Assembly (NCBI RefSeq): GCF_014489115.1 | Contig: NZ_JACTAH010000001.1 | Coordinates: 496,001 to 560,000 of the forward strand | Direction of reading: 5' to 3' | Length of the DNA stretch: 64,000 bases | Origin: Thauera sedimentorum | Lineage (GTDB): Bacteria; Pseudomonadota; Gammaproteobacteria; Burkholderiales; Rhodocyclaceae | Shown here: piece after piece, positions 6,690 through 54,616 of the stretch | Position numbering within the stretch: the first letter of the stretch is position 1 | How the letters are laid out: every line of letters starts with the position of its first letter | The notes under the pieces: generated by a model | What the model saw: only the letters and a program-made list of their open reading frames with translations | The model's database searches: none | What the model was told of the DNA's origin: nothing | Made by a program: the position numbers and the translations under genes

Positions 6690-7472
6690 ATGGAAAGACT
6701 GTTGAGAATATTCGTCACGACATTGACCTCATTTGTGAGCCTCTTTCTTTCCTTTTCCTCATTCTCAGCTGCTTACGAGCAGACTCTTGACAGTGGCAAT
6801 TATCATTTGGAGCGCTGGGAGATGCCATTGGTGCGGTTGATTGTTAAGGATGCTAAATCGCATCAGAACGATAATGGCATAGCGCTGATTGAGGTGGATC
6901 TGATCGAGATTATCCGAAAGGGGGAAATGCAGCTAGGGAAAGGTCCAATAAGAGCTCAGTGGCGAACATATCGCGAGGCGTCGCCTCTTACTGCAGATTC
7001 GTGGGGAGGGGGTGAATCGGTTGGTGAGGAGCTATTCGACAGCTTAATGAATGTGAGTTTAATCTGTTTTGTGGGCTCGGCTTCAGGAAATATTATTTTG
7101 TATGCAGATGCATGTTTTGTTGATGGTCCTGATAATAAGGAAATTGCTGTGAAATTCTCCAAAAGAAAGCCGATTGGAGAATACTTGTATGATTACGCAT
7201 GGTTATGCGTTCTGTTATTTCCGCTAATCGGATTTATCTTGATTTTTGCTCTTCCAAAAATCGGTATGGTCGTTTCTGCTTCGTCGTTTCCGGCGGGAGT
7301 TTACATTCTTTCAGAGGGGAAAGCGTACGATGCAATCATCGTTTACCCAGCTCTCATTCTCGCGGGAATTGTAACGGCCTTAGGCTTTGCCCGGTTGCTC
7401 CATCAGATGGTCAAGGAGGAACGGAAGGATAAGGCCGTTGCCAGTCAGGACGAAGCATCGAGCTCAGATTGA
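6690..7472 (+). CDS. Unknown membrane protein with signal peptide
   Basis: 260 residues from the ATG at 6690; an in-frame GTG at 6675 is possible. The N-terminus MERLLRIFVTTLTSFVSLFL is a signal peptide or first membrane segment. It is followed by a soluble stretch of about 140 residues, then two to three hydrophobic segments (around YAWLCVLLFPLIGFILIFAL and YPALILAGIVTALGFARLL) and a short charged C-terminus. I do not recognise the family; the topology suggests an extracytoplasmic domain held by C-terminal helices. Codon use is visibly more A/T-rich than the surrounding genes, and it follows a transposase scar, so horizontal acquisition is likely. Confidence 0.55.
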   Translation: MERLLRIFVTTLTSFVSLFLSFSSFSAAYEQTLDSGNYHLERWEMPLVRLIVKDAKSHQNDNGIALIEVDLIEIIRKGEMQLGKGPIRAQWRTYREASPLTADSWGGGESVGEELFDSLMNVSLICFVGSASGNIILYADACFVDGPDNKEIAVKFSKRKPIGEYLYDYAWLCVLLFPLIGFILIFALPKIGMVVSASSFPAGVYILSEGKAYDAIIVYPALILAGIVTALGFARLLHQMVKEERKDKAVASQDEASSSD

Positions 7473-7566
7473 CCTCCTCCTAGCATCTTATGTGTGCTGA
7501 TACGGTATCTCCGGGAATTGTTATGGGCTGCAAGACCTCAATCGTCGTAACGTTCTTGCGACTGTC

Positions 7567-8157
7567 TTGTTATCGGTTATTGCGCCCACCGCATTAGCAG
7601 AAATTCTCAGAGGGCCGAGCGCAGCACGTCATGGACTGCGAAGTCGTGAGGTCTGGATCGGGGCAAGATCTCTGGCAGGGGCCAGAATAGGACGGGCCGA
7701 CGGCGACATTCAGGTCGTGTTTTTCGTCGATCTCAATTGTCCCGCCTGCGTCCAGTTGTGGCGATGGTTCGACATGCCAGCACGTCGCCAGTGGGCGACG
7801 TTGTGGGTGCCGGTGAGTCATATGCATCATTCCAGCACGGGACGCGGCATCGCGCTGTTACGCTCGGCACAGCCTAGGGCCGCTCTCCAGGAGAACTACG
7901 GTGAGGGCTTCGACCGGTCTACACGTACTGGCGGACTTGCAGTTGCTGAAGACGAGACGCTGGCCGAACTGTCCGCGATCCGCGTCAATACACACTTCTG
8001 GCGCACCTCTCTTTTCGAAGCCACTCCCATCACACTCTACCGCCGGCGTAATGGAACCTATTGGCAACTGCTGGGCCAGTTGCCCGAGCCGCAGATGGGT
8101 GCAGCCTTCTCGGAGCTCGGTTCGGCAGTCTTACCCGTCTTCAAAGCGCCGCGCTGA
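7567..8157 (+). CDS. Thioredoxin-fold protein with CPAC motif (DsbC/DsbG-like)
   Basis: The core VVFFVDLNCPACVQLWRWF is a thioredoxin-fold active site with a CPAC redox pair. It is followed by WVPVSHMHHSSTGRGIALLR, and later ATPITLYRRRNG carries the cis-proline-type TP. These resemble DsbG/DsbC thiol-disulfide proteins. The start is unclear. A convincing signal sequence (RRNVLATVLLSVIAPTALA, cleaved before E) is encoded in frame from about 7543, but no ATG or GTG lies in that frame. The options are TTG at 7567, CTG at 7528, or a frameshift from the ATG at 7523. I list the TTG conservatively. No obvious partner DsbD or substrate gene is nearby. Confidence 0.6.
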   Translation: MLSVIAPTALAEILRGPSAARHGLRSREVWIGARSLAGARIGRADGDIQVVFFVDLNCPACVQLWRWFDMPARRQWATLWVPVSHMHHSSTGRGIALLRSAQPRAALQENYGEGFDRSTRTGGLAVAEDETLAELSAIRVNTHFWRTSLFEATPITLYRRRNGTYWQLLGQLPEPQMGAAFSELGSAVLPVFKAPR

Positions 8158-39195: not shown

Positions 39196-40625
<1,430 letters not shown>

Positions 40626-40712
40626 AGCCTCCGCAGATTCGGGCCCTGTTCTTGCTAAGTATTCGCAGGGCGCCCGCGTGCGCCGGACAGGGCTGCATGC
40701 CGAGCGTGGTGG

Positions 40713-40728
40713 TGGCATGCGGGTTGCT
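40713..40728 (+). promoter_or_regulatory. Sigma-54 promoter of fliE
   Basis: TGGCATGCGGGTTGCT matches the consensus with intact TTGC and ten-base spacing of GG and GC. It lies 43 bases before the first fliE ATG. Confidence 0.8.
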
Positions 40729-40770
40729 CTGCTAGACTGGAAACCAAGCTAACCCGGACGCCGGGGGAAG

Positions 40771-41100
40771 ATGATGGATACCCGCGGAATTGACCAAGTA
40801 CTGAATGAGCTGCGCTCGGTGTCGCAGGCTGCCTCCGGCAAGCCCGCGGCAGGCGCGGGCGCGCAGGGTGCCGAGGGCGTGGATTTCGCCCAGGTGCTGC
40901 AGAATGCGCTGGTGGATGTGAGCTCGGCGCAGAAGGAAGCGCGTGCCATGGCCGAGAGCTTCTCTGCCGGCGACCCGAACGTGAACCTGCAGGACGTGAT
41001 GGTCGATCTGCAGAAGGCCAGCCTGTCCTTCCAGCAGATGGTGCAGGTGCGCAACCGCCTGGTCACCGCCTACCAGGACATCATGAACATGCCGGTCTGA
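40771..41100 (+). CDS. fliE: Flagellar MS-ring/rod junction protein FliE
   Basis: 109 residues (108 if the second ATG at 40774 is used). FliE joins the MS-ring to the rod. The C-terminal signature VDLQKASLSFQQMVQVRNRL VTAYQDIMNMPV is textbook. It is separated from fliF and points the other way. Its last nine codons and stop are part of the 28-bp att repeat: the gene is intact because the integrated element restores the same sequence, but its natural terminator now lies 12.7 kb away at 53784. Confidence 0.96.
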   Translation: MMDTRGIDQVLNELRSVSQAASGKPAAGAGAQGAEGVDFAQVLQNALVDVSSAQKEARAMAESFSAGDPNVNLQDVMVDLQKASLSFQQMVQVRNRLVTAYQDIMNMPV

Positions 41101-41101
41101 C
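41074..41101 (+). repeat. attL, 28-bp direct repeat at the end of fliE
   Basis: It encodes the last codons (QDIMNMPV) and stop of fliE plus one base and is identical to 53747-53774. The bases on either side differ, which defines the maximal crossover core. Confidence 0.9.
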
Positions 41102-41217
41102 GGCGTTTGGCGAAGTCCACGATAGTCCAGGCTTACGAAGTAACCATCTGAAAAACAACAAATTATTTGGATATGGCGTCCGCCGTTGTCCAAGTTTGTT
41201 CGTTGCAATCCAGTGCA

Positions 41218-41243
41218 TTTGTGGGTAGGGTTGTGGGTAAAGA
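41218..41243 (+). promoter_or_regulatory. Candidate integrase arm-type sites, left end
   Basis: Two direct copies TTTGTGGGTAGGG and TTGTGGGTAAAGA follow each other with a 13-base period. The same TGTGGGTAAAGA occurs near the right end at 53664-53675. Repeated short motifs just inside both att sites are typical of tyrosine-integrase arm binding. Confidence 0.5.
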
Positions 41244-41261
41244 CCCATAACTTACTTCCCT

Positions 41262-42563
41262 ATGCCCACACCTACGGCACTGACGATCCTTCTCGAAGTT
41301 GCAGACCAGAACCGGCTGACATCAGACGAGTTCAAGCGATCCCTAAACGCACGCAAGGTCCTGAATGCGAAGGCAGGGGATGGAGCGACGAAACTGGCTG
41401 ACGGAGGAGGGCTAACGCTCTACATCCCGCCCTCAGGGGCTAAGGCGTGGCGCTACCGCTACCGGCTGCAAGGGAAGGAGCAGACGCTCACCATTGGTGC
41501 TTACCCGGAGGTTTCATTGGAGTGCGCGCGGATTGCGCATCGGGGGGCGCGTTGGCTCGTCGCGCGGGGTGTGCATCCGCGAAGCTATATTGAGGATGAG
41601 GTCGCGGCGCGCACGGCGCGAGAGCAGGCGGCCAACGAGCACACCTTTAAGGCGGTCGCTAAGAGGTGGATGGCTGCAACTGCCTCACACCTTGCGCCGC
41701 GAACCGCAAGGCATCGTGAGGCGATGCTCGAAAAGCATGTTCTTGGGGCGCTGGGCGATAGGGCAGTACATGAGATTACCCGCAAAGAGCTTCACGGTCT
41801 CTTGACAGCGCTCGACCCGAGGGCTCCGGTCACGGCGCGATATTGCCGAGGCTACATCAATCAAATTTTCGAGTACGCGGTGGATGGGGAGCTTGTACAG
41901 GCCAATCCGACGCCTCGCTCCCGTGTGCTCGCTAATGCGTCGACGCGAAAAGAGAAGCCGCGTAAGGCTTTGCCTGTCGGTCGCTTAGGTGAATTCCTGA
42001 TGGCGGTGGAAGATGCACCATCAACGGCTCAAGAAACAAAATCGGCGCTACGTCTTCTCGTGATGACATGGTGCCGCACATCAGAGGTAACGGGAGCTCG
42101 GTGGGAAGAGTTCAGCTTGGACGATGCAGTTTGGCTGATTCCCGCCGCCAGAATGAAAGGCGGTGAAGAGCATCGCGTCTTCTTAAGTAGGCAGGTAGTC
42201 GAGTTGCTTAGAGCCTTGGGGCCGAAAACAGAAGGCCCTGTCTTTCGAAACCGCAAGAATCCAAACGAGCCAATGCATCGTATGACTCTGACGAACTGGC
42301 GCAAACGTTGGGGATTCGGGGATGTTATGGACATTCACGGTTTGCGGGCTACGGCTTCTACTTGGGCTAATGAGTCGGGAAGGTATAGGCCGGATGTGAT
42401 CGAGGTCGCTCTTGCGCACAAGGAGGCAGATCGCGTGCGCGCTGCTTACAACCGGGCAGAGTTCAGTGAAGGGTTGCGCGCACTATGGCAAGACTGGTCA
42501 GACTTGTGCGATAGAAAGTTGGCCGAGGCCCGCGAGAAGAGCAAAGGGCGGTCAACTTCGTAG
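41262..42563 (+). CDS. Tyrosine integrase (P4-type, DUF4102-like arm-binding N-terminus)
   Basis: 433 residues. Residues about 25-100 form a DUF4102-like arm-DNA-binding domain (KLADGGGLTLYIPPSGAKAW RYRYRLQGKEQTLTIGAYPE). The catalytic domain has Arg272 (MTWCRTSEVTGARW), a Lys in the MKGGEEHRV hairpin, His359-x-x-Arg362 (HGLRAT), His386 (LAHKEADRV) and Tyr396 (RAAYNR). All expected catalytic residues are present. It lies directly inside attL and reads away from fliE. It should catalyse integration into, and with a directionality factor excision from, the fliE end. Confidence 0.95.
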   Translation: MPTPTALTILLEVADQNRLTSDEFKRSLNARKVLNAKAGDGATKLADGGGLTLYIPPSGAKAWRYRYRLQGKEQTLTIGAYPEVSLECARIAHRGARWLVARGVHPRSYIEDEVAARTAREQAANEHTFKAVAKRWMAATASHLAPRTARHREAMLEKHVLGALGDRAVHEITRKELHGLLTALDPRAPVTARYCRGYINQIFEYAVDGELVQANPTPRSRVLANASTRKEKPRKALPVGRLGEFLMAVEDAPSTAQETKSALRLLVMTWCRTSEVTGARWEEFSLDDAVWLIPAARMKGGEEHRVFLSRQVVELLRALGPKTEGPVFRNRKNPNEPMHRMTLTNWRKRWGFGDVMDIHGLRATASTWANESGRYRPDVIEVALAHKEADRVRAAYNRAEFSEGLRALWQDWSDLCDRKLAEAREKSKGRSTS

Positions 42564-42668
42564 CATGCTAGTGCATGTCGATCTACTTTTCTTACCATGG
42601 AACTTAGATCATTTTTGACAAACAGTTTGCGAATTATTCTGGAAAATTCACACTCAGATTCGACGTGG

Positions 42669-42682
42669 ATCAATTAATTGAT
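42669..42682. promoter_or_regulatory. Palindrome next to the -35 box
   Basis: ATCAATTAATTGAT is a perfect 14-base palindrome and overlaps the first T of the TTGACA hexamer, a position fit for a regulator. Confidence 0.5.
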
Positions 42683-42710
42683 TGACAGAGGTGAGTGTAT
42701 TCAATATAAT
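42682..42710 (+). promoter_or_regulatory. Exact-consensus sigma-70 promoter
   Basis: TTGACA (42682-42687), a 17-base spacer and TATAAT (42705-42710) match the ideal promoter in every base. Transcription would run toward the AlpA-like gene at 43053. Confidence 0.85.
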
Positions 42711-42717
42711 GCTCGCC

Positions 42718-42736
42718 ACTAGATTTAATATCTAGT
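42718..42736. promoter_or_regulatory. 19-base palindromic operator candidate at the transcription start
   Basis: ACTAGATTTAATATCTAGT has perfect 7-base arms around a 5-base centre and begins eight bases after the -10 box. A repressor bound here would block the promoter. Confidence 0.6.
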
Positions 42737-42788
42737 TGATTCACTGCTAGCTAACTCCCAGTTGGCCTATATTATGAATGTACTCATC

Positions 42789-42816
42789 GCGTTGCGATGA
42801 GGTTCAATCGCAACGC
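42789..42816 (+). ncRNA. Structured leader RNA upstream of the AlpA-like gene (candidate)
   Basis: GCGTTGCGAT pairs perfectly with ATCGCAACGC over an 8-base loop. No T-run follows, so it is not a simple terminator. It may be a leader structure, an attenuator or part of a small RNA driven by the consensus promoter. Confidence 0.35.
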
Positions 42817-43052
42817 ACACTGTTGCGTCTGAAAGGGTCTGCAGATTATTTCGCTCCGATTCTGAGCGTTGTGCTGTGTGGCCTACCCGTGAAATCCGAC
42901 TGTTACCACAATGTGGTAGGCGTCTGCTCGGACAAGTCACGCACTTTTCCCGTCAAACGATTCCGAAGTGGCTAGCGCTTGTGGCATTGCGCTACGGCGT
43001 CAGTCGTCGCATCTGCTCATCTACGGAGTTCGTAAACAATAGGGGAAAATGT

Positions 43053-43238
43053 ATGAAAGCACTCAGAATCAAGCAAGTTATTGAAAAGACGGGCCTTGGG
43101 CGTAGCAGTATCTATGCTCTTCTGGCGAAGGGAATGTTTCCGAAGCAGACGTTGCTCGCAGCTAGAGTTGCTGTGTGGGCGGAAGAGGAGGTAGATGGCT
43201 GGCTTCGGGACCGGTTCTCAAGCCGAAGTGCATGCTGA
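43053..43238 (+). CDS. AlpA-family excisionase/regulator
   Basis: 61 residues with a winged-helix AlpA/MerR-like pattern: RIKQVIEKTGLGRSSIYALL AKGMFPKQ, then VAVWAEEEVDGWLRDR. AlpA proteins of P4-like and CP4-57-like elements regulate the integrase gene or act as directionality factors. GGGGAA precedes the ATG. The long frame upstream to 42876 has no conserved content. Position between integrase and replication-type gene is the usual one in satellites. Confidence 0.85.
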   Translation: MKALRIKQVIEKTGLGRSSIYALLAKGMFPKQTLLAARVAVWAEEEVDGWLRDRFSSRSAC

Positions 43239-43535
43239 TTGTAGTCATGTGTGAGCATCAAGCATCAAATGATGTGTAGATGCCAATAATCCGATGCCGT
43301 GTCACTTCGCTTCAACGTATTTATTCAGATACTTAACGGAGCGAGTGGCGGCATCGGTGACGACTAGCCCATGGTAGGCACGGTCAGCCAATGTGCCTCA
43401 ACTTTGGTACATAAATAATCACTGCTAAGCGAGACTCGCTAGCAAGCTGGACGCATCCCTAAGCTACTGGTTTTCATTCCTAGCCCTTTGGAGCATTAGT
43501 CGAGGTGCGTCTATAAGATATAGGTTCAAAGCTAA
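43239..43535. other. Non-coding region with long inverted repeats (possible origin)
   Basis: An imperfect inverted repeat of about 20-base arms (43291-43311 with 43340-43357; outer arms CCGATGCCG/CGGCATCGG) encloses a 28-base A/T-rich loop. A second hairpin, AGCGAG-A-CTCGCT with flanking GCT/AGC, lies at 43423-43443. The region precedes the HUH-type gene and could be its replication origin. Confidence 0.45.
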
Positions 43536-44048
43536 ATGAATACTGCAACAAGTCAAGAGAGTTTCTACGAAAACAAACACGAAGAGCGGCAGAAATTAAA
43601 ACAAGGTTACTCAGAATTTATTGAGCGCCAGAACTTTACGTGGCACCTAACCGCAAACTTCAACAGAGACACAACGCACGTTCAGGGCTGGAAAATCCTG
43701 AAGAATTGGTCTGCGCGAGTTGATAGACGGCTTCACGGGAGAAACTTCCACAGGAAATCTATCGACGAAAGGCTTTTCTTTATTGCCGTACCAGAGATCG
43801 GTGGAAGTAGTGGGTACTTGCACTACCACATCGTTGCGAAGATGCCTATTCACTCAGAGGCTTGCTTCGAACTTGTGGCGGCTTCAGTTTGGGAAGAGCT
43901 GGTGCGAACAGGTGATTTATTCTGTCAAAAAATCCAGAATTCTGCCGAGGATGTTAGTAGGGTGGTGAGCTACGACATCAAGGATATATGGAAAAATAAC
44001 GGTTTAGAGCAAATAATCATTTCCACAGAATTTGCGCCAAATAATTAA
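43536..44048 (+). CDS. Small HUH-type replication initiator candidate
   Basis: 170 residues. Three motifs in the right order resemble rolling-circle Rep proteins: motif I NFTWHLTANF (residues 33-42), motif II GYLHYHIVAK with His96-x-His98, and motif III VVSYDIKDIW with Tyr146 and Lys149 (YxxK). The protein is short and shows no helicase domain. Low G+C codon use contrasts with the host genes. It follows the inverted repeats described upstream. In satellites and plasmids such a protein nicks the origin. An alternative is a relaxase- or transposase-like HUH enzyme. Family assignment is by motif reading only. Confidence 0.55.
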   Translation: MNTATSQESFYENKHEERQKLKQGYSEFIERQNFTWHLTANFNRDTTHVQGWKILKNWSARVDRRLHGRNFHRKSIDERLFFIAVPEIGGSSGYLHYHIVAKMPIHSEACFELVAASVWEELVRTGDLFCQKIQNSAEDVSRVVSYDIKDIWKNNGLEQIIISTEFAPNN

Positions 44049-44074
44049 TTGATCCATCGCGCCGTCGTGGTGGT

Positions 44075-44332
44075 TCAAACGTGTTCGACAACGTGAAGCA
44101 CTAGAGCGCCACGACTAACAATATATTCGATGCGCGACACGAAATACGGATGATCATCAAAAAATACGGGGGTATCAGGGTGCCCCCGTAGCCACTCAAT
44201 GAACTCGCCGATCTGCTCTGAAGTGGCACGTCTTTCACTAACGCAACCCTGCCTCTTAGCGAACTTTACAGATACGTTTATTGGTCCGCCAGAAAAATAC
44301 TCAAGATACTCGATTCGTTCCAACTGAGACAC
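44075..44332 (-). CDS. Hypothetical protein
   Basis: 85 residues, MSQLERIEYLEYFSGGPINV at the N-terminus and EWLRGHPDTPVFFDDHPYFV in the middle. I do not recognise it. It is encoded opposite to the HUH-type gene, in the same direction as the next small genes. Compact, mixed alpha/beta composition, no signal or membrane segment. Confidence 0.45.
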   Translation of the reverse strand: MSQLERIEYLEYFSGGPINVSVKFAKRQGCVSERRATSEQIGEFIEWLRGHPDTPVFFDDHPYFVSRIEYIVSRGALVLHVVEHV

Positions 44333-44353
44333 GGTGTATCCCTCAAGACTTAT

Positions 44354-44385
44354 GGCCTCGAAGTTCTCGCTTCGGGGCCTTTTCT
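44354..44385 (+). terminator. Hairpin with T-run
   Basis: GGCCTCGAAG pairs with CTTCGGGGCC around TTCTCG, followed by TTTTCT. On the plus strand it looks like a rho-independent terminator and could end transcripts coming from the HUH-type gene. Confidence 0.45.
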
Positions 44386-44386
44386 A

Positions 44387-44662
44387 TTAATTCAACAACG
44401 GACACCAACCCGGTCTGTTCGTATCCTCGTGCAGATGGTGGGGCCGACATGACTGAGCGACGCACCGATAGGGGTTCCGGTCGGAGAGCCAGCGGGATTC
44501 AGGGTCTTGCTCCGGGTTTTGCACCTTGGTACAGACCACCGCGAGGTCAGTGGCACAGAACCAGTCTTCCGGCTCCGGATCGGGGATTACACGGTGATTA
44601 GGACAGTCGAGGCAGTTTGCCGCTGGTCCTGTGGGGCTCTTGCCCTTCTTTGACTTGCCCAT
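44387..44662 (-). CDS. Small cysteine-rich protein
   Basis: 91 residues, MGKSKKGKSPTGPAANCLDC at the start, from an ATG with a strong GGAGGT; the longer frame to 44740 is unlikely. Seven cysteines occur: CLDC, WFCATDLAVVC, YRCVAQSC and GWCPLL. The spacing suggests a zinc- or metal-binding knuckle. I cannot name the family. It lies just downstream of the phosphatase on the same strand and may be co-transcribed. Confidence 0.6.
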   Translation of the reverse strand: MGKSKKGKSPTGPAANCLDCPNHRVIPDPEPEDWFCATDLAVVCTKVQNPEQDPESRWLSDRNPYRCVAQSCRPHHLHEDTNRPGWCPLLN

Positions 44663-44676
44663 AGAAATACCTCCAT

Positions 44677-45630
44677 TCAAGTCTGTCCGTTCTGCACGTA
44701 GTGGAAGCCTTCGTTCGAGAGTTGCTGCTCCCCGTTCCAACGATATGCGACAAGCTTGCCCTGCTTGGCCACAGAAAAGTCCGTACAGGCCGCTAATGGG
44801 CTCTGAATGGTTGGATGGCCACTCATCCAGTAATGGCCGAAAAAGACCGGTTTCTGCGGCTGGTAGCGGTATCGCGCGGATTCAGGAATCTCGACCGGTG
44901 GGAACTTCGCACGGATGTGATCATCGATCACCGCTGCGTCTGGGAACAGAATCGCACTCTCATCCCACCATCGAACACGCACTTCGCTGCGCGCATGCCC
45001 CCCTTTGTCTTCGAAAGTTACGCCGGCTGGGAGCGATGTTTCAAGGCCTTTGAGCCACACTTCTATGGCGTTGAACAAAGTTTCCTCTTCACCTGGTGCA
45101 GGTTTGCTCGCTGCTTCATTCATCAGTTCTGGTGTCAGGCGATTACCCGGCGCGAGGCGTCCTGCGAACCGGTCCATATACCCGGTGTGCCAGCAGGCGT
45201 GAATCACATTGATCCCGTCCAGTTCGAGCCACAGCGGCAGGGTCAGAAACCAGTCGACAACGTCCTTGTGTAGCTCTGAGTTCCCACTCACTGCAGCAAG
45301 AAAGGCGGCGTGCTGATCCTCATTCTTCTTGGAGTGCTCGCGAAGGGGCCTGCCATGCTCGTCGAGGGTTCGCCACGCGATGGCGTTGAACTCATGATTT
45401 CCCATCGTGGCCTGCGCATGGCCCGCGTCGACCATCCTGCGAACGATGTCGACGACCTCCAGTTGCTTCGGTCCTCGGTCGATAAGGTCGCCGACGAACA
45501 CAGCTTTGCGTTCAGGATGACGCCAAGTTCCAACCTGTTTGCGGTAGTCCAGCTTTTGAAGCAGTGCTTCCAGTTCATCGGCGTGACCATGAATGTCTCC
45601 AATCACGTCGTACCCAGCAACTTCCGCCAT
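44677..45630 (-). CDS. Calcineurin-like metallophosphatase
   Basis: 317 residues. The metal-binding motifs of the metallophosphoesterase fold are in order: DVIGDIHGHADELEALL, AVFVGDLIDRGPKQ, ATMGNHEFNAIAW, and a later GHYWMSG. This is the ApaH/PrpE-type branch, acting on phosphoproteins, bis-nucleoside polyphosphates or related substrates. It is the best-recognised cargo gene of the left part of the element. Similar phosphatases occur with nucleic-acid repair or defence cargo, but no partner (such as a kinase-ligase) is present here. Confidence 0.85.
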   Translation of the reverse strand: MAEVAGYDVIGDIHGHADELEALLQKLDYRKQVGTWRHPERKAVFVGDLIDRGPKQLEVVDIVRRMVDAGHAQATMGNHEFNAIAWRTLDEHGRPLREHSKKNEDQHAAFLAAVSGNSELHKDVVDWFLTLPLWLELDGINVIHACWHTGYMDRFAGRLAPGNRLTPELMNEAASKPAPGEEETLFNAIEVWLKGLETSLPAGVTFEDKGGHARSEVRVRWWDESAILFPDAAVIDDHIRAKFPPVEIPESARYRYQPQKPVFFGHYWMSGHPTIQSPLAACTDFSVAKQGKLVAYRWNGEQQLSNEGFHYVQNGQT

Positions 45631-45665
45631 GAGTGCTCCCGTTCTGTCTGTTTCTTGATTGATGG

Positions 45666-45908
45666 TCAGACCCCAACGCCGACGATCTCGGCGTAGCTCT
45701 TTTTTAAATCCTCGCCAGAGAGCGCGTCTTCAAAGAACGCGTCGACGAGAACGGCGCGAAAGGCTTCGAAGCTGAGTTGCGCCAACGGGATTTCCGCAAT
45801 CGCGCTAGCGATCCTGTCGTATTCGTCTTCCATGTCCTCGCACACGTTGCAGCCCGTGTTCGCGGGGTCATGGCGATAGAGAATTGCACTGATGCGATCA
45901 GGCGTCAT
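45666..45908 (-). CDS. Hypothetical protein
   Basis: 80 residues from the ATG giving MTPDRISAILYRHDPANTGC (AGGA seven bases upstream). The sequence is acidic and helical (CEDMEDEYDRIASAIAEIPL). Its start overlaps the end of the next upstream gene by four bases, so the two are translationally coupled. Family not recognised. Confidence 0.6.
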   Translation of the reverse strand: MTPDRISAILYRHDPANTGCNVCEDMEDEYDRIASAIAEIPLAQLSFEAFRAVLVDAFFEDALSGEDLKKSYAEIVGVGV

Positions 45909-46369
45909 TTGCTGTTCCTGTCTTCGGTAAGAACTTCCATACGAACCTGCGGCGAGACAAAGCCGTCCTGCCAGAGCAGCACGCGTCCGTGGGCACCGCC
46001 CTTGTCTGCGCAATGAAACTGCAGGACGCCCGACACTGCGCTGGCGACCGTGATGGTCGAAGCGATGTAAAGATCGCAGTCGAATAGATCGTCGAAGACG
46101 TCGATCAGCACTCCTTCCCCCGGCAGAACCTGCTCATAGCGGGTCTGGGCATCGGTGGTCGCCACCGGGTCGCCGTCCGCGTCGATGAAGCCGCCTACCG
46201 AGCCATTCGCGACCCAGTCGAGCGTCTCATCCGTGTGGTTCACGAAGAACAGTTCGCCATTGCTGCGGTAGAGGCAGAATCGCGGGCGCAACGCCCTGTC
46301 TGTGCGCGAGTGTGGGTAGTTGAGCAGCGCCGCATCCCTTCGTCGCTTTGCTTGCATTTCGTGGTCCAT
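45905..46369 (-). CDS. Hypothetical protein
   Basis: 154 residues, beginning MDHEMQAKRRRDAALLNYPH. The core is beta-rich (RFCLYRSNGELFFVNHTDET, YIASTITVASAVSGVLQFHC). No signal peptide or membrane segment. Coupled to the 80-residue gene downstream. Possibly a small cytoplasmic protein of accessory regions; no function assigned. Confidence 0.55.
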   Translation of the reverse strand: MDHEMQAKRRRDAALLNYPHSRTDRALRPRFCLYRSNGELFFVNHTDETLDWVANGSVGGFIDADGDPVATTDAQTRYEQVLPGEGVLIDVFDDLFDCDLYIASTITVASAVSGVLQFHCADKGGAHGRVLLWQDGFVSPQVRMEVLTEDRNSK

Positions 46370-46395
46370 CGGAGTGTTGAGGATTCGCCTGGCCG

Positions 46396-46590
46396 TCAGA
46401 AGCTGCGCTTGACCGCCCCTGTCTTGATGTCGATGACCTTCACGCGGCCAGTCTTGTCCGTGACCTGGACCATGTCGCCGAGAACCTGCGCAGAGACGAT
46501 GCCGCCGCTCACCGTCCGTTTAACTGCGCCTGTCTTGACTTCGACGACTCTCGCGAACCCTCCTTGCACCTTCACGGCATAGGCAGTCAT
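46396..46590 (-). CDS. Small protein with internal beta repeat
   Basis: 64 residues. Two halves repeat: VVEVKTGAVKRTV and VIDIKTGAVKRSF, each ending with a KTGAVKR turn, so a small beta-sheet protein is likely. AGGAG lies eight bases before the ATG. It is the first gene of the minus-strand group and is divergent from the WYL regulator. I do not know a characterised homologue. Confidence 0.6.
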   Translation of the reverse strand: MTAYAVKVQGGFARVVEVKTGAVKRTVSGGIVSAQVLGDMVQVTDKTGRVKVIDIKTGAVKRSF

Positions 46591-46759
46591 TGAATTGTCT
46601 CCTGGATACGCAAAGTTGTTGGGCATCGTGCCGTAGACGATGACAATGGTCACCACGGCATGCGATAGACGTAGAATAATGGCGTAGTGCGACGCAGCTT
46701 GTCGCAGCGTGCAAGGAAAGTGGCCCATCGCAAGCGGGGAATCGACAGGCAATGCAACT

Positions 46760-47818
46760 ATGGGACGGACACGAGTGACCATCCGAGCGACCATCCTTCG
46801 CCACTGGCAGCTTCTCAGGCTCTTACCCCGCTATCCGCAGAAGATCACCGCTCAAGAACTCAAGCAGGCGCTCGCGGTGCACGGCTTCGACACCACGGAA
46901 CGGACTGTCCAGCGCGATCTGATGGACCTGTCGAGTGCCTTCCCCTTGGTGGTCGATGAGCGTGCCAAACCCTATGGCTGGAGTTGGCAGCGCGAAGCCC
47001 GTAGTTTCGATCTGCCGGGGCTGTCGGTTGCCGAGGCACTGACTTGGGTTCTCGCGGAACAGCATCTGCGGAGCCTGCTCCCGGCCGGTATCGTCGAACA
47101 CCTTCAGCCCCAGTTCCAAGCCGCCCGAAGCCGGCTGTCTGCCGAACAACAGCCCACGCCAGCGCGATCCTGGTTGGACAAGGTTCGCACCGTGCCACCC
47201 GCACAACCACTGACGCCGCCCCAAGTCGCCCACGAGGTTCAGCGCACCGTCTCCGATGCGCTCATGCGCGAGCGCCAGTTGGACATCAGCTATCGCAAGA
47301 AAGGCAGCAAGTCCGCGGAGAGCTACCGAATACATCCGCTGGCCATTATCCAACGTGGCTGGGTGATCTACCTGCATGCCCGCATTGGCGACTACCCCAA
47401 CGCGCAGAACTTCGCTTTGCACCGCGTCGAGGCGGCAACGCTACGCGAAGAACCAGCCGTTGCACCACCGGGCTACGATCTCGACGCCGGTATCGAGCGG
47501 GGTATCTGGGCTTTCGGCAAGGGCCAGCTATTACAAGTCGCGCTGCGCTTCTCGCGCGAGGCCGGAGAGCACCTGCTCGAAACACCCCTATCTACCGATC
47601 AGTCGGTAAGCGACGAAGGTGGCACGCTCCTCGTCCATGCAACTGTGGCCGACACCCCGCAGCTCAGATGGTGGCTGCTCGGCTTTGGCGATACGGTCGA
47701 GGTTCTGAGCCCGACTGCCCTGCGACGGGAGATGTCGGATGTCGCCGCTAGAATGGCCCGAAAGTACGCCTCTGGTGCGATGATGGACTCCTCAGCGGCG
47801 CTTGCGCAAAGGGCCTAG
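46760..47818 (+). CDS. WYL-domain transcriptional regulator
   Basis: 352 residues from the ATG at 46760; GTG starts at 46709 or 46721 are possible. The N-terminal helix-turn-helix covers TILRHWQLLRLLPRYPQKIT AQELKQALAVHGFDTTERTV QRDL. A WYL core lies at residues about 165-235 (RQLDISYRKKGSKSAESYRI HPLAIIQRGWVIYLHAR), followed by a WCX-like C-terminus (RWWLLGFGDTVEVLSPTALR). WYL regulators such as BrxR and CapW repress or time phage-defence operons. It lies 128 bases before the type ISP gene on the same strand, so control of that gene is the obvious inference. Confidence 0.85.
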   Translation: MGRTRVTIRATILRHWQLLRLLPRYPQKITAQELKQALAVHGFDTTERTVQRDLMDLSSAFPLVVDERAKPYGWSWQREARSFDLPGLSVAEALTWVLAEQHLRSLLPAGIVEHLQPQFQAARSRLSAEQQPTPARSWLDKVRTVPPAQPLTPPQVAHEVQRTVSDALMRERQLDISYRKKGSKSAESYRIHPLAIIQRGWVIYLHARIGDYPNAQNFALHRVEAATLREEPAVAPPGYDLDAGIERGIWAFGKGQLLQVALRFSREAGEHLLETPLSTDQSVSDEGGTLLVHATVADTPQLRWWLLGFGDTVEVLSPTALRREMSDVAARMARKYASGAMMDSSAALAQRA

Positions 47819-47946
47819 CGCACGCATCCGTAAGCCGCTACCTGCGGGTCAGTGACCGTCTTCGCCCTTCGACCATCACCTTACAGTCTGAGATAGTTAA
47901 CGTTGCTGTGCGGACAGCTTGTCCTGCACAGGTTCTTGAGGCTCCT

Positions 47947-50900
47947 ATGTCTTCACTTAAAGTCTTGCTTGACACCTTTCGCTCCGCATCCGTCTCCGAG
48001 CGGGAGAAAGGTACCTATTTCGAAGAGTTGATCCTCTGCTATCTACGGAATGAAGCAACGTACCGTGATCTCTATGCGCAGGTTTGGACGTATGCGGATT
48101 GGGCGCAGCTGCGACAAATCGATGCCCGTGACGTCGGTATCGACCTTGTGGCCCAAACAGCTACCGGTGAGTACCACGCCATCCAATGCAAGCTGTACGC
48201 GGAAGACTATCGCCTGCAGAAAGGTGACATCGACAGCTTCTTCACGGCATCAGGCAAGAAACCGTTCACGCACCGCATCATTGTCAGCACGACCAATCAC
48301 TGGAGCGAGCACGCAGAAGATGCGCTGCGTGATCAGCAGCCTCCGGTCAGCAAGATAGACCTTCACGATCTGGAAAACAGCCAGATCGAGTGGGCCAGCT
48401 ACGCGCCAAAATCGGCTCCCGTGCTCAAAAGCAAGAAGCAACTGCGTGAGCATCAACAAGCCGCCCTAGCAAAGACTCAAGCAGGCTTGGCATCGGCTGA
48501 CCGTGGCAAGCTCATCATGGCTTGCGGTACTGGAAAAACCTTCACCGCCCTCAAAATCGCAGAGACGCTGGCCGGCAAAGGCAAACGGGTGCTCTTCCTT
48601 GTCCCGAGCCTCAATCTACTGTCACAAACCCTCACTGAATGGACGCAGGAAAGCGAAACGCCGCTACACAGTTTTGCAGTCTGCTCTGATAGCGACGTGG
48701 GCAAGAAGCGGAAGAAGGATGACGATACCGTTCAAACCTTCACCCATGAATTGCGCTACCCCGCGACGACCGAGCCTGGCCGGCTGGCAACGGAAATGGG
48801 CAAGCGTCACGATACCGGACACATGAGCGTGGTGTTCAGTACCTACCACTCCATCGATGTGATCAGCCGTGCCCAGCTTGAGCATGGTCTGGCGGACTTC
48901 GATCTGATCATCTGTGACGAAGCCCACCGCACCACCGGCGCCACCTTCGAGAGCGAAGACGAGAGCGCCTTTGTTCGCGTTCATGACAACGCCTACATCC
49001 GCTCCGCCAAGCGGCTGTACATGACTGCTACGCCACGCATTTATGGCGAGCTTGCCAAGGCCAGCGCGGAAAAAGACAACGTGGCCCTGTGTTCCATGGA
49101 TGACGAAGCCCTCTATGGCAAGGAGCTTTTCGTCATCACCTTCTCGGAAGCGGTACGCCGGAAGCTACTGTGCGACTACAAGGTGATCGTGTTGGCCATC
49201 GAAGAGGCCCACGTCAGCCGCCGTATCCAGAATCTGCTGAAAGACCCGGACAACCAGCTCAAGGTAGATGACGCAGCCAAGATCATCGGCTGCTGGAAAG
49301 CGCTATCCAAGCAGGGGCTGGCAGATGACCTGATAGGTGATGGTCAGGCCATGCAACGCGCCGTGGCCTTCTGTCAGGTGATTGAAATCGCAAAGGCAGG
49401 CAAGACGCACAAGGTCAGCTCGAAGCAGATTGCCTCCATGTTCCAGTCCGTCGTCGAGGCGTACCAGGAGGCAGAAGAATTCGAGCAGGTGGCGAACCTC
49501 CACTGCGAAGCCGACCATGTGGATGGCAGCATGAACGCCAGCGAAAAAGAAGCCAAACTCGCCTGGCTCAAGGAAGCCCCCCCGGAAAACACCTGCCGGA
49601 TTCTCTCCAATGTGCGTTGCCTGTCCGAAGGCGTCGACGTGCCCGCCCTGGATGCTGTGCTGTTCCTGACGCCGCGCAATTCGCAAGTGGATGTGGTGCA
49701 GTCGGTCGGCCGCGTCATGCGGACAGTCAAAGACCCGGTAACGAATGAAGACCTGAAGAAACGCGGCTATGTGATCCTGCCTGTGGTCATCCCGGCCGGC
49801 GTAGAGCCTCACGAAGCGTTGAACGACAACCAGACCTACAAGGTGGTCTGGCAGGTGCTGCAAGCCCTGCGCTCACACGATGACCGCTTCGATGCGATGG
49901 TGAACAAGCTCGATCTGATCGGCAGGGACCCCAGCAAGATGGAAGTCATTGCCGTCACCGACAAGGTAGCCAAAAAACAAGAAAAGCCCAAGGGCAAGAG
50001 CAAGGGCCAGACCGGCCAGGGTGGCTTCAGTATTGGCACTTCGGTCACGCAGAACAAGCCGGTTCAGCAGCCCCTGGAGTTCGAGATTGGCGAAATCGAG
50101 CGCGCCATTTACGCGAAACTGGTGCAGAAGGTAGGCAACCGCCACCACTGGGAGGACTGGGCCAACGACATTGCCAAGATCGCCCGCACCCACGTCGACC
50201 GTATCACTGGCATTCTGGAAAACAAGGCGAACACCCAAGAGCGTGAAGCCTTCAATGCTTTTGCAGAAGAACTGCGCGACGACCTTAACGATAGCATCAC
50301 CGATTGTGAAATCATCGAAATGCTGGCCCAGCACCTGATTACCAAGCCGGTTTTTGATGCGCTTTTTGAAAGCTACAGCTTCGCCCAGCACAACCCTATG
50401 TCGCAGGCCATGCAGGCGGTCCTGGATTTACTGCAAGAGCATCACCTGAGCAAGGAAGTGGATACCCTTCAGTCTTTCTACGACAGCGTGAAACTGCGGG
50501 CTGAAGGCATTGAGAGCGCCACCGGCAAGCAGAAGATCGTGGTGGAGCTGTATGACAAGTTCTTCCGCAATGCCTTCCCCAAGATGACGGAACGGCTGGG
50601 CATCGTCTATACCCCTGTGGAAGTGGTGGATTTCATCATCCACAGCGTCAATCACATCCTGCGGACGGAGTTTGGGCAGACACTGGGCAGTGAGGGCGTT
50701 CACATCATTGACCCCTTCACCGGCACCGGTACCTTCATCACCCGCCTGATGCAAAGTGGTCTGATCACGCCGGAGCAGTTGCCCTACAAGTACAAAAACG
50801 AAATCCACGCCAACGAGATCATCTTGCTGGCCTACTACATAGCCGCCATCAATATCGAAGCGGTGTATCACAGCATTGTTGGCGGCGAATACCGACCTTT

Positions 50901-52887
50901 TGACGGCATTTGTCTGACTGACACCTTCCAGATGTACGAGAAGGATGATCTGGTGGACGCATTGCTAGTACAGAACAGCACAAGGCGCAAGCGGCAGAAA
51001 GCACTGGACATTCGCGTCATCATTGGAAATCCGCCGTATTCAATCGGCCAAGCCAGCCAAAATGACGACAACCAAAACACTCAGTACAAGAGGTTGGATG
51101 AGAGCATAAGAAACTCATATGTTGCTCGCTCAACTGCAACGGCGAGTCGAGCAATGTACGATAGTTACATTCGTGCTATCCGCTGGGCCAGTGATCGCAT
51201 TGGTGATAGTGGCGTCATCGGTTTTGTCACCAATGCAAGCTTTGTCGAGGCCAACACTGCAGACGGCCTACGCCAGTGTCTGGCAGATGAATTCTCTAGC
51301 CTGTATATCTTCCATCTGCGCGGAAACCAGCGCACCAGCGGCGAAGCCTCACGCAGGGAGGGTGGTAAGATTTTTGGCAGTGGCAGCCGTGCGCCCATTG
51401 CCATTTCGCTGCTTGTAAAGAACCCACAGACTGAAGAGCAAGGCCGCATCTATTTCCACGATATTGGCGACTATCTGAGTAGAGAAGATAAGCTGGAGCG
51501 AATCAGTATCTTGGCTAGTGTAGCTGGCATCGCCGCAGAACAGGGCTGGCAGTCCATCACGCCAAATGAGCATGGAGACTGGTTGAAGCAGCGGGATGAC
51601 AGCTTCAACACGCACTTGGCTATTGGAAGCAAAAGAGGGCACGAAAAGTCACTATTCAGCAACTACTCTCAGGGCGTACTTACCGCTCGTGACGCTTGGT
51701 GCTACAACTTTAGCAAGAATGCTCTTGCGAACAATGTTCGACGGACAATTTCCTCCTACAACCAGCTTCTGACAGGAGTAGATATTGCCGACAAGAGCAG
51801 CATTAGCTGGACTCGTTCACTGAAGAAACAGTTTCAAAAAGGGCGGCCGCTGGAGTTCGATAGTTCGTGCTTAACCGTAAGCAGCTATCGGCCATTCACA
51901 AAGCAGCACCTCTACTTCAACAGAAGACTTAATGAATACATCTATCAGATGAGCGCAGTGTTTCCAAGAGGTGCAAGAAACTGCGTCATCGTGATAACGG
52001 GAACCGGCGAGACAAAGGACTTCTCCGCGTTGATCACGGATTGCATTCCGGACTTCAAGCATCACTACAATAGCCAATGCTTCCCGCTATACCTTTTCGA
52101 TGACGCAACAGGAACCAATGAGCAGCCACAGTCTGGGCTGTTTGATACCCCGTCCAACACAATGCGCCAACAGCGTGATGCCATCACAGATGAAGGGCTG
52201 TCGCACTTCCAAAGGGCTTACCCCGGTGAGCTTATCTGTAAAGAGGATGTCTTCTATTACGTCTATGGCCTCCTGCATTCGTCAGATTACCGCGAACGCT
52301 ACGCTGATAACCTGAATAAGGAGTTGCCGCGCATCCCATGCGTTATCACCGCAGCCGACTTCTGGGCCTTCTCCAAAGCCGGACGCAAACTGGCCGACCT
52401 CCACCTAAATTACGAAACCGTGGCGCCGTACCCGCTCAAGACTGAATCAGTCGGCAAACTGACTGATGCTGACTACCGCGTCGTGAAGATGAAGTACGGC
52501 AAGAAGGGAAAGGACAAAGACCTAACCACGCTGCATTACAACGATAAGATCACTTTGACCAGCATCCCGCTGGAAGCGTACGACTACGAGGTCAATGGCA
52601 AACCGGCGTTGGATTGGGTGGTGGAGCGTCAATGCGCAAAGCCCGACAACGTCAGTGGTATCGTCAATGACGCTAATGATTGGGCTATCGAGACTATGAG
52701 CAACCCACGCTATCCACTGGAGTTGTTTGCGCGCGTGGTAACGGTCAGCTTGGAAACGATGAAGATCGTGAAGAGCCTTCCTAGGCTCCAGATCATGACA
52801 GGCCTAGCTCCTGGCGCACTCAATGACGAATTTCAATCTGGCGTGGCAGTCGCGGGCGGGACGCTCCAGGTTGTATCAGCGGGTTAG
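47947..52887 (+). CDS. Type ISP (single-polypeptide) restriction-modification enzyme
   Basis: 1646 residues from the ATG of MSSLKVLLDTFRSASVSERE, with GAGG upstream. Domains in order: Mrr-like nuclease (DVGIDLVAQT..YHAIQCKLY, PD-(D/E)xK type, residues about 55-85); SF2 translocase with Walker A ACGTGKT near 194 and DEAH near 322; helical coupler; N6-adenine methyltransferase with motif I DPFTGTGTF near 922 and NPPYSIGQ near 1028; then a target-recognition region. Size and order match LlaGI/LlaBIII-type enzymes, which modify one strand and cut between head-to-head sites after translocation. No separate specificity subunit is needed. All catalytic motifs seem intact. Confidence 0.93.
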   Translation: MSSLKVLLDTFRSASVSEREKGTYFEELILCYLRNEATYRDLYAQVWTYADWAQLRQIDARDVGIDLVAQTATGEYHAIQCKLYAEDYRLQKGDIDSFFTASGKKPFTHRIIVSTTNHWSEHAEDALRDQQPPVSKIDLHDLENSQIEWASYAPKSAPVLKSKKQLREHQQAALAKTQAGLASADRGKLIMACGTGKTFTALKIAETLAGKGKRVLFLVPSLNLLSQTLTEWTQESETPLHSFAVCSDSDVGKKRKKDDDTVQTFTHELRYPATTEPGRLATEMGKRHDTGHMSVVFSTYHSIDVISRAQLEHGLADFDLIICDEAHRTTGATFESEDESAFVRVHDNAYIRSAKRLYMTATPRIYGELAKASAEKDNVALCSMDDEALYGKELFVITFSEAVRRKLLCDYKVIVLAIEEAHVSRRIQNLLKDPDNQLKVDDAAKIIGCWKALSKQGLADDLIGDGQAMQRAVAFCQVIEIAKAGKTHKVSSKQIASMFQSVVEAYQEAEEFEQVANLHCEADHVDGSMNASEKEAKLAWLKEAPPENTCRILSNVRCLSEGVDVPALDAVLFLTPRNSQVDVVQSVGRVMRTVKDPVTNEDLKKRGYVILPVVIPAGVEPHEALNDNQTYKVVWQVLQALRSHDDRFDAMVNKLDLIGRDPSKMEVIAVTDKVAKKQEKPKGKSKGQTGQGGFSIGTSVTQNKPVQQPLEFEIGEIERAIYAKLVQKVGNRHHWEDWANDIAKIARTHVDRITGILENKANTQEREAFNAFAEELRDDLNDSITDCEIIEMLAQHLITKPVFDALFESYSFAQHNPMSQAMQAVLDLLQEHHLSKEVDTLQSFYDSVKLRAEGIESATGKQKIVVELYDKFFRNAFPKMTERLGIVYTPVEVVDFIIHSVNHILRTEFGQTLGSEGVHIIDPFTGTGTFITRLMQSGLITPEQLPYKYKNEIHANEIILLAYYIAAINIEAVYHSIVGGEYRPFDGICLTDTFQMYEKDDLVDALLVQNSTRRKRQKALDIRVIIGNPPYSIGQASQNDDNQNTQYKRLDESIRNSYVARSTATASRAMYDSYIRAIRWASDRIGDSGVIGFVTNASFVEANTADGLRQCLADEFSSLYIFHLRGNQRTSGEASRREGGKIFGSGSRAPIAISLLVKNPQTEEQGRIYFHDIGDYLSREDKLERISILASVAGIAAEQGWQSITPNEHGDWLKQRDDSFNTHLAIGSKRGHEKSLFSNYSQGVLTARDAWCYNFSKNALANNVRRTISSYNQLLTGVDIADKSSISWTRSLKKQFQKGRPLEFDSSCLTVSSYRPFTKQHLYFNRRLNEYIYQMSAVFPRGARNCVIVITGTGETKDFSALITDCIPDFKHHYNSQCFPLYLFDDATGTNEQPQSGLFDTPSNTMRQQRDAITDEGLSHFQRAYPGELICKEDVFYYVYGLLHSSDYRERYADNLNKELPRIPCVITAADFWAFSKAGRKLADLHLNYETVAPYPLKTESVGKLTDADYRVVKMKYGKKGKDKDLTTLHYNDKITLTSIPLEAYDYEVNGKPALDWVVERQCAKPDNVSGIVNDANDWAIETMSNPRYPLELFARVVTVSLETMKIVKSLPRLQIMTGLAPGALNDEFQSGVAVAGGTLQVVSAG

Positions 52888-53043
52888 CTATTGAGAGAGT
52901 CCGGCCGCTCATTCTCTTCCCGCGTCAACAAGTGGTCACTTCTTGGCACCCATCCGAGAAATGTCAAAAACATAGGCGTACACAGTAACTGGCATGGTGC
53001 GATATACTGACAGCAGTTTCTGACACTTTTAGGAGCCGCTGTC

Positions 53044-53637
53044 ATGTCCCGCGTCTTTGCCTACGCCCGTGTCTCGACGGTAGACCAGCTCACTGAGAAC
53101 CAAGCCGAACAGATCGCTCAGGCCGGCTACTCGATCCAGCCGAATCGGTACATTGAAGAGAAGGTATCGGGATCGGTGCCCACTTCGCAGCGCCAAGGCT
53201 TCCAGAAGCTCATGGATCGCATGGAGGAAGGCGACACGCTCGTGGTCACCAAGCTGGACCGGATCGGTCGCGACTCCATCGATGTTCAACAGACGGTCAA
53301 GCTCTGCGCTGAGCGGGGCATCCGGCTAGTTGTGCTTCAGCTTGGCAACCTCGATCTGACTTCATCGGCTGGTGAACTCATGGTCAAGGTGCTTGCGGTA
53401 GTCGCGGACTTCGAGCGCGATCTGATCATTGAGCGTACTCAGGCGGGGCAGGCGCGTGCGCGAGCCGAAGGAAAGCACATGGGGCGTCCGAGCAAGACGA
53501 CTGAGGAGCAGCGCAGAGCGATTCTTCAGAGGCTGACTGGCGGAGAGTCAGTGTCGTCGCTCGCGAGGGCCTATAGGCTCTCTCGGGGCACGGTCATCAA
53601 CATTCGCGATGCTTGCAGGTCTGCGAGCCAAGCATAG
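53044..53637 (+). CDS. Serine recombinase (resolvase/invertase family)
   Basis: 197 residues. The catalytic Ser11 lies in FAYARVSTVDQ. Further signature stretches are LVVTKLDRIGRDSIDVQQTV, LTSSAGELMVKVLAVVADFE RDLIIERT and the C-terminal HTH (SVSSLARAYRLSRGTVINIR). GGAG precedes the ATG. It is the last gene of the element before attR. It may resolve multimers or invert a segment; I see no clear invertible inverted-repeat pair beside it. Confidence 0.92.
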   Translation: MSRVFAYARVSTVDQLTENQAEQIAQAGYSIQPNRYIEEKVSGSVPTSQRQGFQKLMDRMEEGDTLVVTKLDRIGRDSIDVQQTVKLCAERGIRLVVLQLGNLDLTSSAGELMVKVLAVVADFERDLIIERTQAGQARARAEGKHMGRPSKTTEEQRRAILQRLTGGESVSSLARAYRLSRGTVINIRDACRSASQA

Positions 53638-53645
53638 GCGAGGGG

Positions 53646-53685
53646 GTGGGTATCCTGCATAAGTGTGGGTAAAGATGTGGGTACG
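53646..53685 (+). promoter_or_regulatory. Candidate integrase arm-type sites, right end
   Basis: GTGGGTA occurs three times: at 53646, in TGTGGGTAAAGA at 53664 and in TGTGGGTACGG at 53676. The last two match the pair near attL, with the same direct orientation. Confidence 0.5.
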
Positions 53686-53746
53686 GACGATGTGGTATTC
53701 TGAGCAAGTCTTGTAAATAAAGGCTTATAAGGCTTAAGAAGCATTA

Positions 53747-53774
53747 CAGGACATCATGAACATGCCGGTCTGAC
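53747..53774 (+). repeat. attR, 28-bp direct repeat
   Basis: Exact copy of the end of fliE (41074-41101). It is followed by the displaced fliE terminator, which shows that the ancestral fliE ended here. Confidence 0.9.
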
Positions 53775-53783
53775 ACGTTCCGG

Positions 53784-53830
53784 CCCTGAAACGACAACGC
53801 CGCCCGATGGGCGGCGTTGTCGTTTCAGGG
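53784..53830. terminator. Bidirectional terminator, originally behind fliE
   Basis: A perfect 22-bp stem (53784-53805 with 53809-53830) with a 3-base loop. It sits 12 bases after the ycgR stop and, before the insertion, about ten bases behind fliE. It was built to separate two convergent units. Confidence 0.85.
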
Positions 53831-53842
53831 CGGGGTTTCGAC

Positions 53843-54616
53843 TCAGAGGCCGCGCTCGCGGGCGCTGCGGTCGCGTTCGACCTTGAAGATGTAGCGCTGG
53901 ATCAGGTTGTTGGCGCTGTTGGGCAGGTTCACGAATTCGCAGCCGGCCCGCAGCACTTCGACGCCGTTGCGGTTGGTCAGGCGGAACAGGTTGCGTACCC
54001 GCATGCGGACCGTGACCGGGCCGAAATCCGGCAGGTTCACGCGGCAGCCGTCGAACTCCATGCCGGGCACGAAATCCGCGTCGTCGGGCGGCACGACCAC
54101 GGCCATGCCGCCACCGGAGATGTCCAGCACCCGCGCTTCGATGGTGCGCGGTTCTTCGTCCTTCTGCGGAACCGGGATGGTGCAGTTCAGCGCGTGGGTG
54201 ATCGGCGCGACCAGCCGGTAGAACTCGCGGCGCTGCAGGCGCAGCAGGCGCTCCGGGCGGTCGGCCACGAAGGCGTCGCGCCCCTGGTAGGTGACTTCCT
54301 GGATGCCGCTCAGGGGAAACTGGATCTTGATGCCTTCGAGCTGGGTGGCGCAGATCAACTCGTCGATGGACGCCACCCGGCGGTTCACCGCTTCGTCCGG
54401 GCTGGCGTCGAAGACCAGGCGTTCCTCGTCGTCGATCAGCGTGAGGATGGCGGTGAGGAAGGACTGATTGCCGGAGGGCAGGTAGGTGGTGATCAACGCG
54501 CGGTTTTCCACCAGCGAGCGGAGGATCTGCTTGATTTGCCGGGCGTCGTGCAGCAGGTACTGGGCAAAGTCGTCGGAGCGAAGCAGTTCGACTCGAGTGG
54601 TGTTTTCGGTGCTCAT
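53843..54616 (-). CDS. ycgR: Cyclic-di-GMP-responsive flagellar brake YcgR
   Basis: 257 residues. An N-terminal YcgR/PilZN domain (to about residue 120) is followed by a PilZ domain with RLQRREFYR (Arg129, Arg130, Arg134) and DISGGGMAV (Asp165-x-Ser167), the c-di-GMP ligands. On binding c-di-GMP, YcgR slows the motor through FliG/MotA. It is convergent with the (ancestral) fliE position and heads the second flagellar block on the minus strand. Confidence 0.93.
   Translation of the reverse strand: MSTENTTRVELLRSDDFAQYLLHDARQIKQILRSLVENRALITTYLPSGNQSFLTAILTLIDDEERLVFDASPDEAVNRRVASIDELICATQLEGIKIQFPLSGIQEVTYQGRDAFVADRPERLLRLQRREFYRLVAPITHALNCTIPVPQKDEEPRTIEARVLDISGGGMAVVVPPDDADFVPGMEFDGCRVNLPDFGPVTVRMRVRNLFRLTNRNGVEVLRAGCEFVNLPNSANNLIQRYIFKVERDRSARERGL

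Follow-up and report, generated by a model that had tools for sequence, protein, structure and literature searches.

The window analysed here, a stretch of 64,000 nucleotides from Thauera sedimentorum, raises the question of why the last codons of a flagellar gene, fliE, recur 12.7 kb downstream, and whether the DNA between the two copies is an integrative element that uses the 3' end of fliE as its attachment site, as a first-pass annotation had proposed. The direct repeat, CAGGACATCATGAACATGCCGGTCTGAC, is exact over the 28 bp that had been claimed for it, and when up to 3 mismatches were allowed it was found exactly twice in the 3.96-Mb genome (backwards control, 0). The last eight codons of fliE and its stop lie within the first copy, and the gene remains whole, as had been stated. 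The 12.7-kb island that follows is low in GC, i.e., 47-62% in 1-kb steps, against mostly 64-74% elsewhere in the window. A second GC dip, outside the element, was seen at window positions 6001-8000 (56% and 52% vs about 67%). A tRNA scan found no tRNA gene in the window. Three features characterize the island: a tyrosine recombinase gene inside it and close to one end, with 160 bp between the attL core and the start of int; terminal direct repeats with the FliE reading frame regenerated intact; and an empty site in relatives (G001 and G005). Judged by these features, the window element is an integrative element whose mechanism would be standard tyrosine-integrase integration with regeneration of the target gene. 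The coordinates of its parts are given in Table 1.

Table 1. Features of the fliE-linked element and its borders (feature; window position; strand; basis or remark)
Sigma-54-like promoter, TGGCATGCGGGTTGCT	40713..40728	+	sequence match only; 58 bp upstream of fliE
fliE, target gene, intact	40771..41100	+	ORF; PF02049, 104.6 bits, E=3e-30
attL core	41074..41101	+	28 bp; repeat and genome-wide uniqueness
Weak hairpin with T-rich tail	41165..41195	+	-14.2 kcal/mol; lax scan without control
P'-arm pair of TGTGGGTA, 12 bp apart	41220..41239	+	proposed arm-type integrase sites
Tyrosine integrase (int)	41262..42563	+	Arm-DNA-bind_3, Phage_int_M, Phage_integrase (PF13356, PF22022, PF00589)
AlpA-like protein, candidate excisionase/regulator	43053..43238	+	PF05930 on longer ORF; PHROG excisionase and transcriptional regulator, 6e-10
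Possible HUH replication-initiator-like protein	43536..44048	+	PF23343, 24.9 bits, below cut-off 27.8; no PHROG match
Metallophosphatase-like cargo protein	44677..45630	-	PF00149
WYL-WCX regulator	46709..47818	+	PF13280, PF25583
Type ISP single-chain restriction-modification enzyme, 1659 aa	47908..52887	+	PF18135, PF22240, PF13156, helicase domains; PADLOC PDLC03597, 2402 bits
Serine recombinase, resolvase/invertase type, 197 aa	53044..53637	+	PF00239; PHROG DNA invertase
P-arm pair of TGTGGGTA, 12 bp apart	53664..53683	+	proposed arm-type integrase sites; 83 bp left of core
attR core	53747..53774	+	28 bp; repeat and genome-wide uniqueness
Native fliE/ycgR terminator-like hairpin, displaced from fliE	53780-53834	+	sequence; comparison with relatives
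ycgR (PilZN-PilZ), host gene past the site, convergent	53843..54616	-	domains and relatives

The site was compared with that of five same-genus relatives (G001 to G005), within a set comprising one genome per species and no strain pair differing by the element alone. Empty sites of the kind anticipated, in which fliE reads into the hairpin, are present in G001 and G005; in both, the match to the window runs unbroken from the second copy of the repeat across the hairpin and ycgR, with 82% and 83% identity at positions 1-870. In two further relatives, G002 and G004, fliE likewise runs directly into a terminator-like hairpin (four of the five in all), followed by about 0.8 kb and about 5 kb of other DNA, respectively, before ycgR. 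The roughly 5 kb in G004 (L083) past the fliE terminator indicates that the surroundings vary outside the att site as well. G003 carries, 3' of fliE, sequence resembling the element arm that includes an arm pair and a terminator-like hairpin; no integrase was recognisable in this stretch, ycgR lies 2.8 kb on, and the site is read as a decayed insertion. Among the genomes opened, one per species, none had the repeat at both positions without the element.

To find related integrases, we searched 395 Rhodocyclaceae genomes, scoring up to four candidates per genome. Matches at E<=1e-90 were obtained in at least 10 genomes, the window included, a count that is a lower bound because of the four-candidate scoring; weaker members of the clade, beyond those listed, could lie elsewhere. 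All ten integrases have fliE directly upstream and in the same direction, with 138-180 bp between the first base of the stop codon and the position aligned with integrase residue 1, so that the fliE-linked integrases whose existence the first-pass annotation had left to be checked do exist. The nine non-window members are 44 to 70% identical to that of the window, and the ten span 7 of 68 genera. Since three genera each hold two distant members (identities to the window of 44 and 63% in g45, 44 and 65% in g34, and 48 and 56% in g8), acquisition at fliE has probably been repeated.

A tree of 74 integrases was then considered, comprising the ten fliE-linked proteins, 33 located elsewhere and 31 of 120 listed homologues. 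The tree is unrooted, and in it the ten fall on one side of a 100/99 branch with all 33 others outside; among the 31 homologues, whose location was unchecked, 19 fell inside the fliE clade and 10 in a sister group. No fliE was found in the flanks (mostly 1.5 kb) of the 33 outside loci (L005-L037) or of L089, the flank of L033 giving one 28-residue chance-level match (E=0.68). A tRNA gene was present in the flank of 13 of the 29 outside loci scanned, each time upstream of int and on the int strand (13/13). With the tree unrooted, the fliE clade would most simply have descended from tRNA-using ancestors. A class-wide search of 369 genomes gave a single match besides the window at E<=1e-66 (G574, 40% identity), which has no fliE and is preceded by tRNA-Gly and tRNA-Cys genes. 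A scan of genome contigs returned five integrase relatives of 31-36% identity, and viral contigs contained neither an integrase relative nor an exact copy of the att motif. Integrases in plasmid and phage records were below 60% identity, the best among the 15 and 10 matches listed being 40.6% and 36.8%.

Among known integrases, the nearest are the tyrosine integrases of the P4/CP4-57 type, with Arm-DNA-bind_3 and AlpA. The window element resembles this type in domain layout, in its AlpA neighbour, in the position of int beside attL and in its co-direction with the target gene; its integrase scores 199 bits against PRK09692, below the cut-off of 434. A flanking tRNA gene is present in 13 of 29 relatives outside the clade, whereas the clade uses fliE. 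The proposal of an integrative element at the 3' end of fliE is upheld by the repeat, the empty sites and the integrase clade, and is stronger than first put forward because a whole clade is tied to the gene. We assign a probability of about 0.93 to the reading that the tyrosine integrase is one of a clade specific for the fliE 3' end, at which it integrates with fliE kept whole.

Further occupied sites and scars were sought through the att motif. The site pattern matched at least once in 297 of the 395 family genomes, and 23 genomes, most of which were read, had two or more att-motif matches. This two-copy search added three genomes with a partial int at fliE, i.e., G249, where int is cut by the contig end, and G330 and G277, which hold int fragments. 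In G035 one contig has fliE at its end, and another carries an att copy ahead of ycgR. G201 (L147) and G325 (L148) have two att copies behind fliE, 1.0 and 0.7 kb apart, with no integrase between them. The intervals contain little but a toxin-antitoxin-like pair (Phd/YefM and ParE in G201; DUF433 and DUF5615 in G325), and the P-arm pair remains in G201 and is absent from G325. Altogether, the integrase search and the scar check, which covered the genomes with at least two att-motif matches and those of the same genus, yielded at least 17 genomes with an occupied or scarred site, including G003 and G284, the latter with int and no distal copy found. In G135, G038, G289, G349 and G035 the gene after the distal copy is ycgR; in G315 it comes after a third copy. 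Seven genomes (G049, G194, G209, G273, G302, G345 and G383) were set aside, their second match having 2 mismatches and resembling other sequence; fliE copies were opened in G273 and G302 alone, and a case may hide among the seven. G208 has two fliE genes.

Comparison of 14 att pairs, eight of them read across two contigs of draft genomes, defined the core. Repeat positions 2-14 were identical within all 14 pairs, though the sequence varies between hosts; host variants such as CAGGACATGATG or CAAGATATCATG are the same in both copies of one genome. Positions 16-20 were likewise invariant within pairs. This invariance is partly built in, since a motif search tolerating up to 2-3 mismatches located the att copies, and the patterns used to read them prescribe some letters of the core. 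G330 differs within its pair at position 1. The other within-pair differences, at position 24 in seven of the 14, in the stop codon's second base in three, at 15 in two and at 21 in one, are synonymous for FliE or exchange one stop for another. For G284 no attR was found.

On both sides of the element, pairs of an TGTGGGTA-like octamer recur at similar positions. The two octamers of a pair are 12 bp apart. Measured from the first base of the fliE stop, the attL-side pair lies 101-135 bp to the right in 11 of 14 flanks (0.03 expected from base shuffles); the attR-side pair is present in 11 of 15 flanks, 83-85 bp to the left of the distal core (0.07 expected). These expectations flatter the octamer because it was picked by eye from the very flanks tested. 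Under the same criterion the pair is missing from three of the attL and four of the attR flanks. The nearly fixed position at -83 to -85 is a stronger sign for arm pairs than the shuffle figures, and the TGTGGGTA pairs are candidate arm-type sites of the Arm-DNA-bind_3 domain.

We propose that the integrase, presumably active in catalysis and able to excise the element, would bind the paired TGTGGGTA sites on both attP arms and recombine a core matching the conserved DNA for the FliE C-terminus (QDIMNMPV). Strand exchange would take place where attP and attB must match, most likely in repeat positions 2-14, with 16-20 as the alternative. From a crossover in 2-14 it would follow that the element swaps in its own synonymous last FliE codons and stop, which selection on FliE would keep. 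AlpA is likely an excisionase or a regulator of int. The cargo is free to vary; in the window it is a type ISP restriction-modification system with a WYL regulator.

The type ISP enzyme combines nuclease, helicase, coupler, methylase and ISP C-terminal specificity domains in one chain (PF13156, PF04851, PF22240, PF02384 and PF18135). A small serine recombinase adjoins the right attachment arm of this tyrosine-integrase element, and a near-palindromic 19-bp inverted repeat, 89% complementary, brackets the AlpA and possible replication-initiator genes (window 42666-44056). Neither conjugation genes nor a relaxase were recognised among the window-element proteins scanned, which included part of the small ORFs; likewise, 10 proteins compared with PHROGs (again with part of the small ORFs) included no phage structural gene. 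The PHROG matches were of integrase, excisionase and invertase types, and the sole packaging-type match was a 20-bit partial one, to a terminase small subunit, in the serine recombinase. On these marks the window element classes neither as an integrative and conjugative element (ICE) nor as a prophage or phage satellite.

Other members of the family differ in size and load. Where both att copies stand on a single contig, their spacing ranges from 12.7 kb in the window through 22.3 kb (G315) and 32.0 kb (G277) to 110 kb (G253). In scans of selected large ORFs, G315 showed type I restriction genes, G289 showed TraC_F_IV and TraI_2, G247 an AcrB-type pump, and G253 helicase and nuclease-domain proteins that are perhaps defence. 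The G289 element looks conjugative from its TraC_F_IV and TraI_2; for G289 and G247 we infer that the cargo lies inside the element, because the distal copy is on another contig. The 110-kb element of G253 also holds two adjacent ORFs (1291 and 650 aa; L164 14003-19827) with no Pfam match at E<=1e-5. Past the distal att copy, arm-like stretches are present in G315 (L102/L113) and G277 (L146), and G315 has a third att-like copy 707 bp on, ahead of ycgR; the extra stretches are probably tandem insertions or scars. In G163 a similar arm-like stretch was seen, matching at 78% over 59 bases on the short end of a contig.

The window element might be an inert island that integrated once by the fliE route and has since lost its mobility. 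Decayed relatives exist, i.e., G003 with an arm only and the short intervals of G201 and G325, and the window element has no recognised conjugation, relaxase or phage structural gene, all of which fits such a history. Against this, the integrase ORF and the AlpA gene are present and unbroken in the window, as are both cores and the two pairs of arm sites, and we regard lost mobility as rather unlikely.

Another possibility, a link between flagellar expression and excision that the first-pass annotation had also raised, concerns transcription. The first-pass annotation had the fliE terminator moved 12.7 kb away, and the hairpin is indeed found beyond the second repeat copy; sigma-54 flagellar transcription could then pass into int, and excision would follow motility gene expression. 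A sigma-54-like site precedes fliE in 15 of 18 genomes (not G004, G284 or G249) under a loose pattern with no shuffle control. A consensus scan of window positions 40600-41300 reported no terminator and no sigma-70-like promoter, int is co-directional with fliE and at most 180 bp from it in 10 of 10 cases, and by strict scan a strong terminator-like hairpin is absent from eight of the ten sites with full-length int. Read-through from fliE to int is possible at these eight. However, the same scan found strong hairpins between fliE and int at 4 of 14 occupied or scarred sites, against 0.7 expected: two of the ten with full-length int (G289, G038) and two of the four scarred ones (G003, G277). 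Unoccupied or distal sites had one in six of seven cases (0.45 expected), G302 being the exception. A lax scan added weaker hairpins in the window, G163 and G135; that of the window, reported by neither the consensus nor the stricter scan, lies near the position of the canonical terminator in G289 and G003. Some elements therefore shield int and most may not. Moreover, all 13 relatives with a flanking tRNA gene share the co-directional layout, which thus needs no expression-based reason, the orientation of int following from the attP layout. We consider it improbable that flagellar transcription drives excision in this way, and just as doubtful that the family has specialised on a flagellar gene and ties its excision or transfer to host motility through sigma-54 fliE transcription that reaches int, at least in members without a strong terminator, such as this one.

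Finally, it is most improbable that the repeat arose by chance or duplication and that the low-GC block entered long ago by some other route with the integrase as passenger: the serine recombinase at the right end would suit such a route, but similar att pairs and int positions recur across elements with differing cargo, the located integrases group by site, and the repeat occurs nowhere else in the genome.

A clade dedicated to the fliE 3' end has counterparts among known islands. According to Farrugia et al. (2015; PMC4482086), dusA-specific integrases target the 5' end of a tRNA-modification gene. The fliE clade is like the dusA family described there in having one integrase family, one protein-coding target, variable size and cargo, and the integrase as common gene, and differs in using the 3' end of a flagellar gene. 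In the TIGER/Islander announcement, 43.4% of islands of all integrase types lie in coding sequences and 33.8% in tRNA or tmRNA genes (PMC12424338); a precisely mapped insertion in a protein-coding gene, as here, is common in that collection. The site had been called unusual, which holds for this gene, whereas protein-coding targets in general are not rare in the same source. The word fliE is absent from the text of PMC12424338, PMC4482086 and PMC12884075, and the TIGER/Islander database may hold fliE islands. In PMC4686621 fliE is used as a PCR marker, and the titles and abstract openings listed in the literature searches contained no report of fliE as an attachment site. The att specificity is of a well-known kind; what is new, judging by these searches, is the choice of fliE and the recurrence of that choice within one clade.

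The finding adds a new attachment specificity common to a clade, consisting of the conserved fliE core and the proposed arm sites. It also shows that restriction, conjugative and other cargo can share a core flagellar gene as their hotspot. A ready attB may be present in flagellated Rhodocyclaceae, Aromatoleum for example, and would offer a handle for finding islands there; any effect of insertion on motility or fliE transcription becomes a directly testable question.
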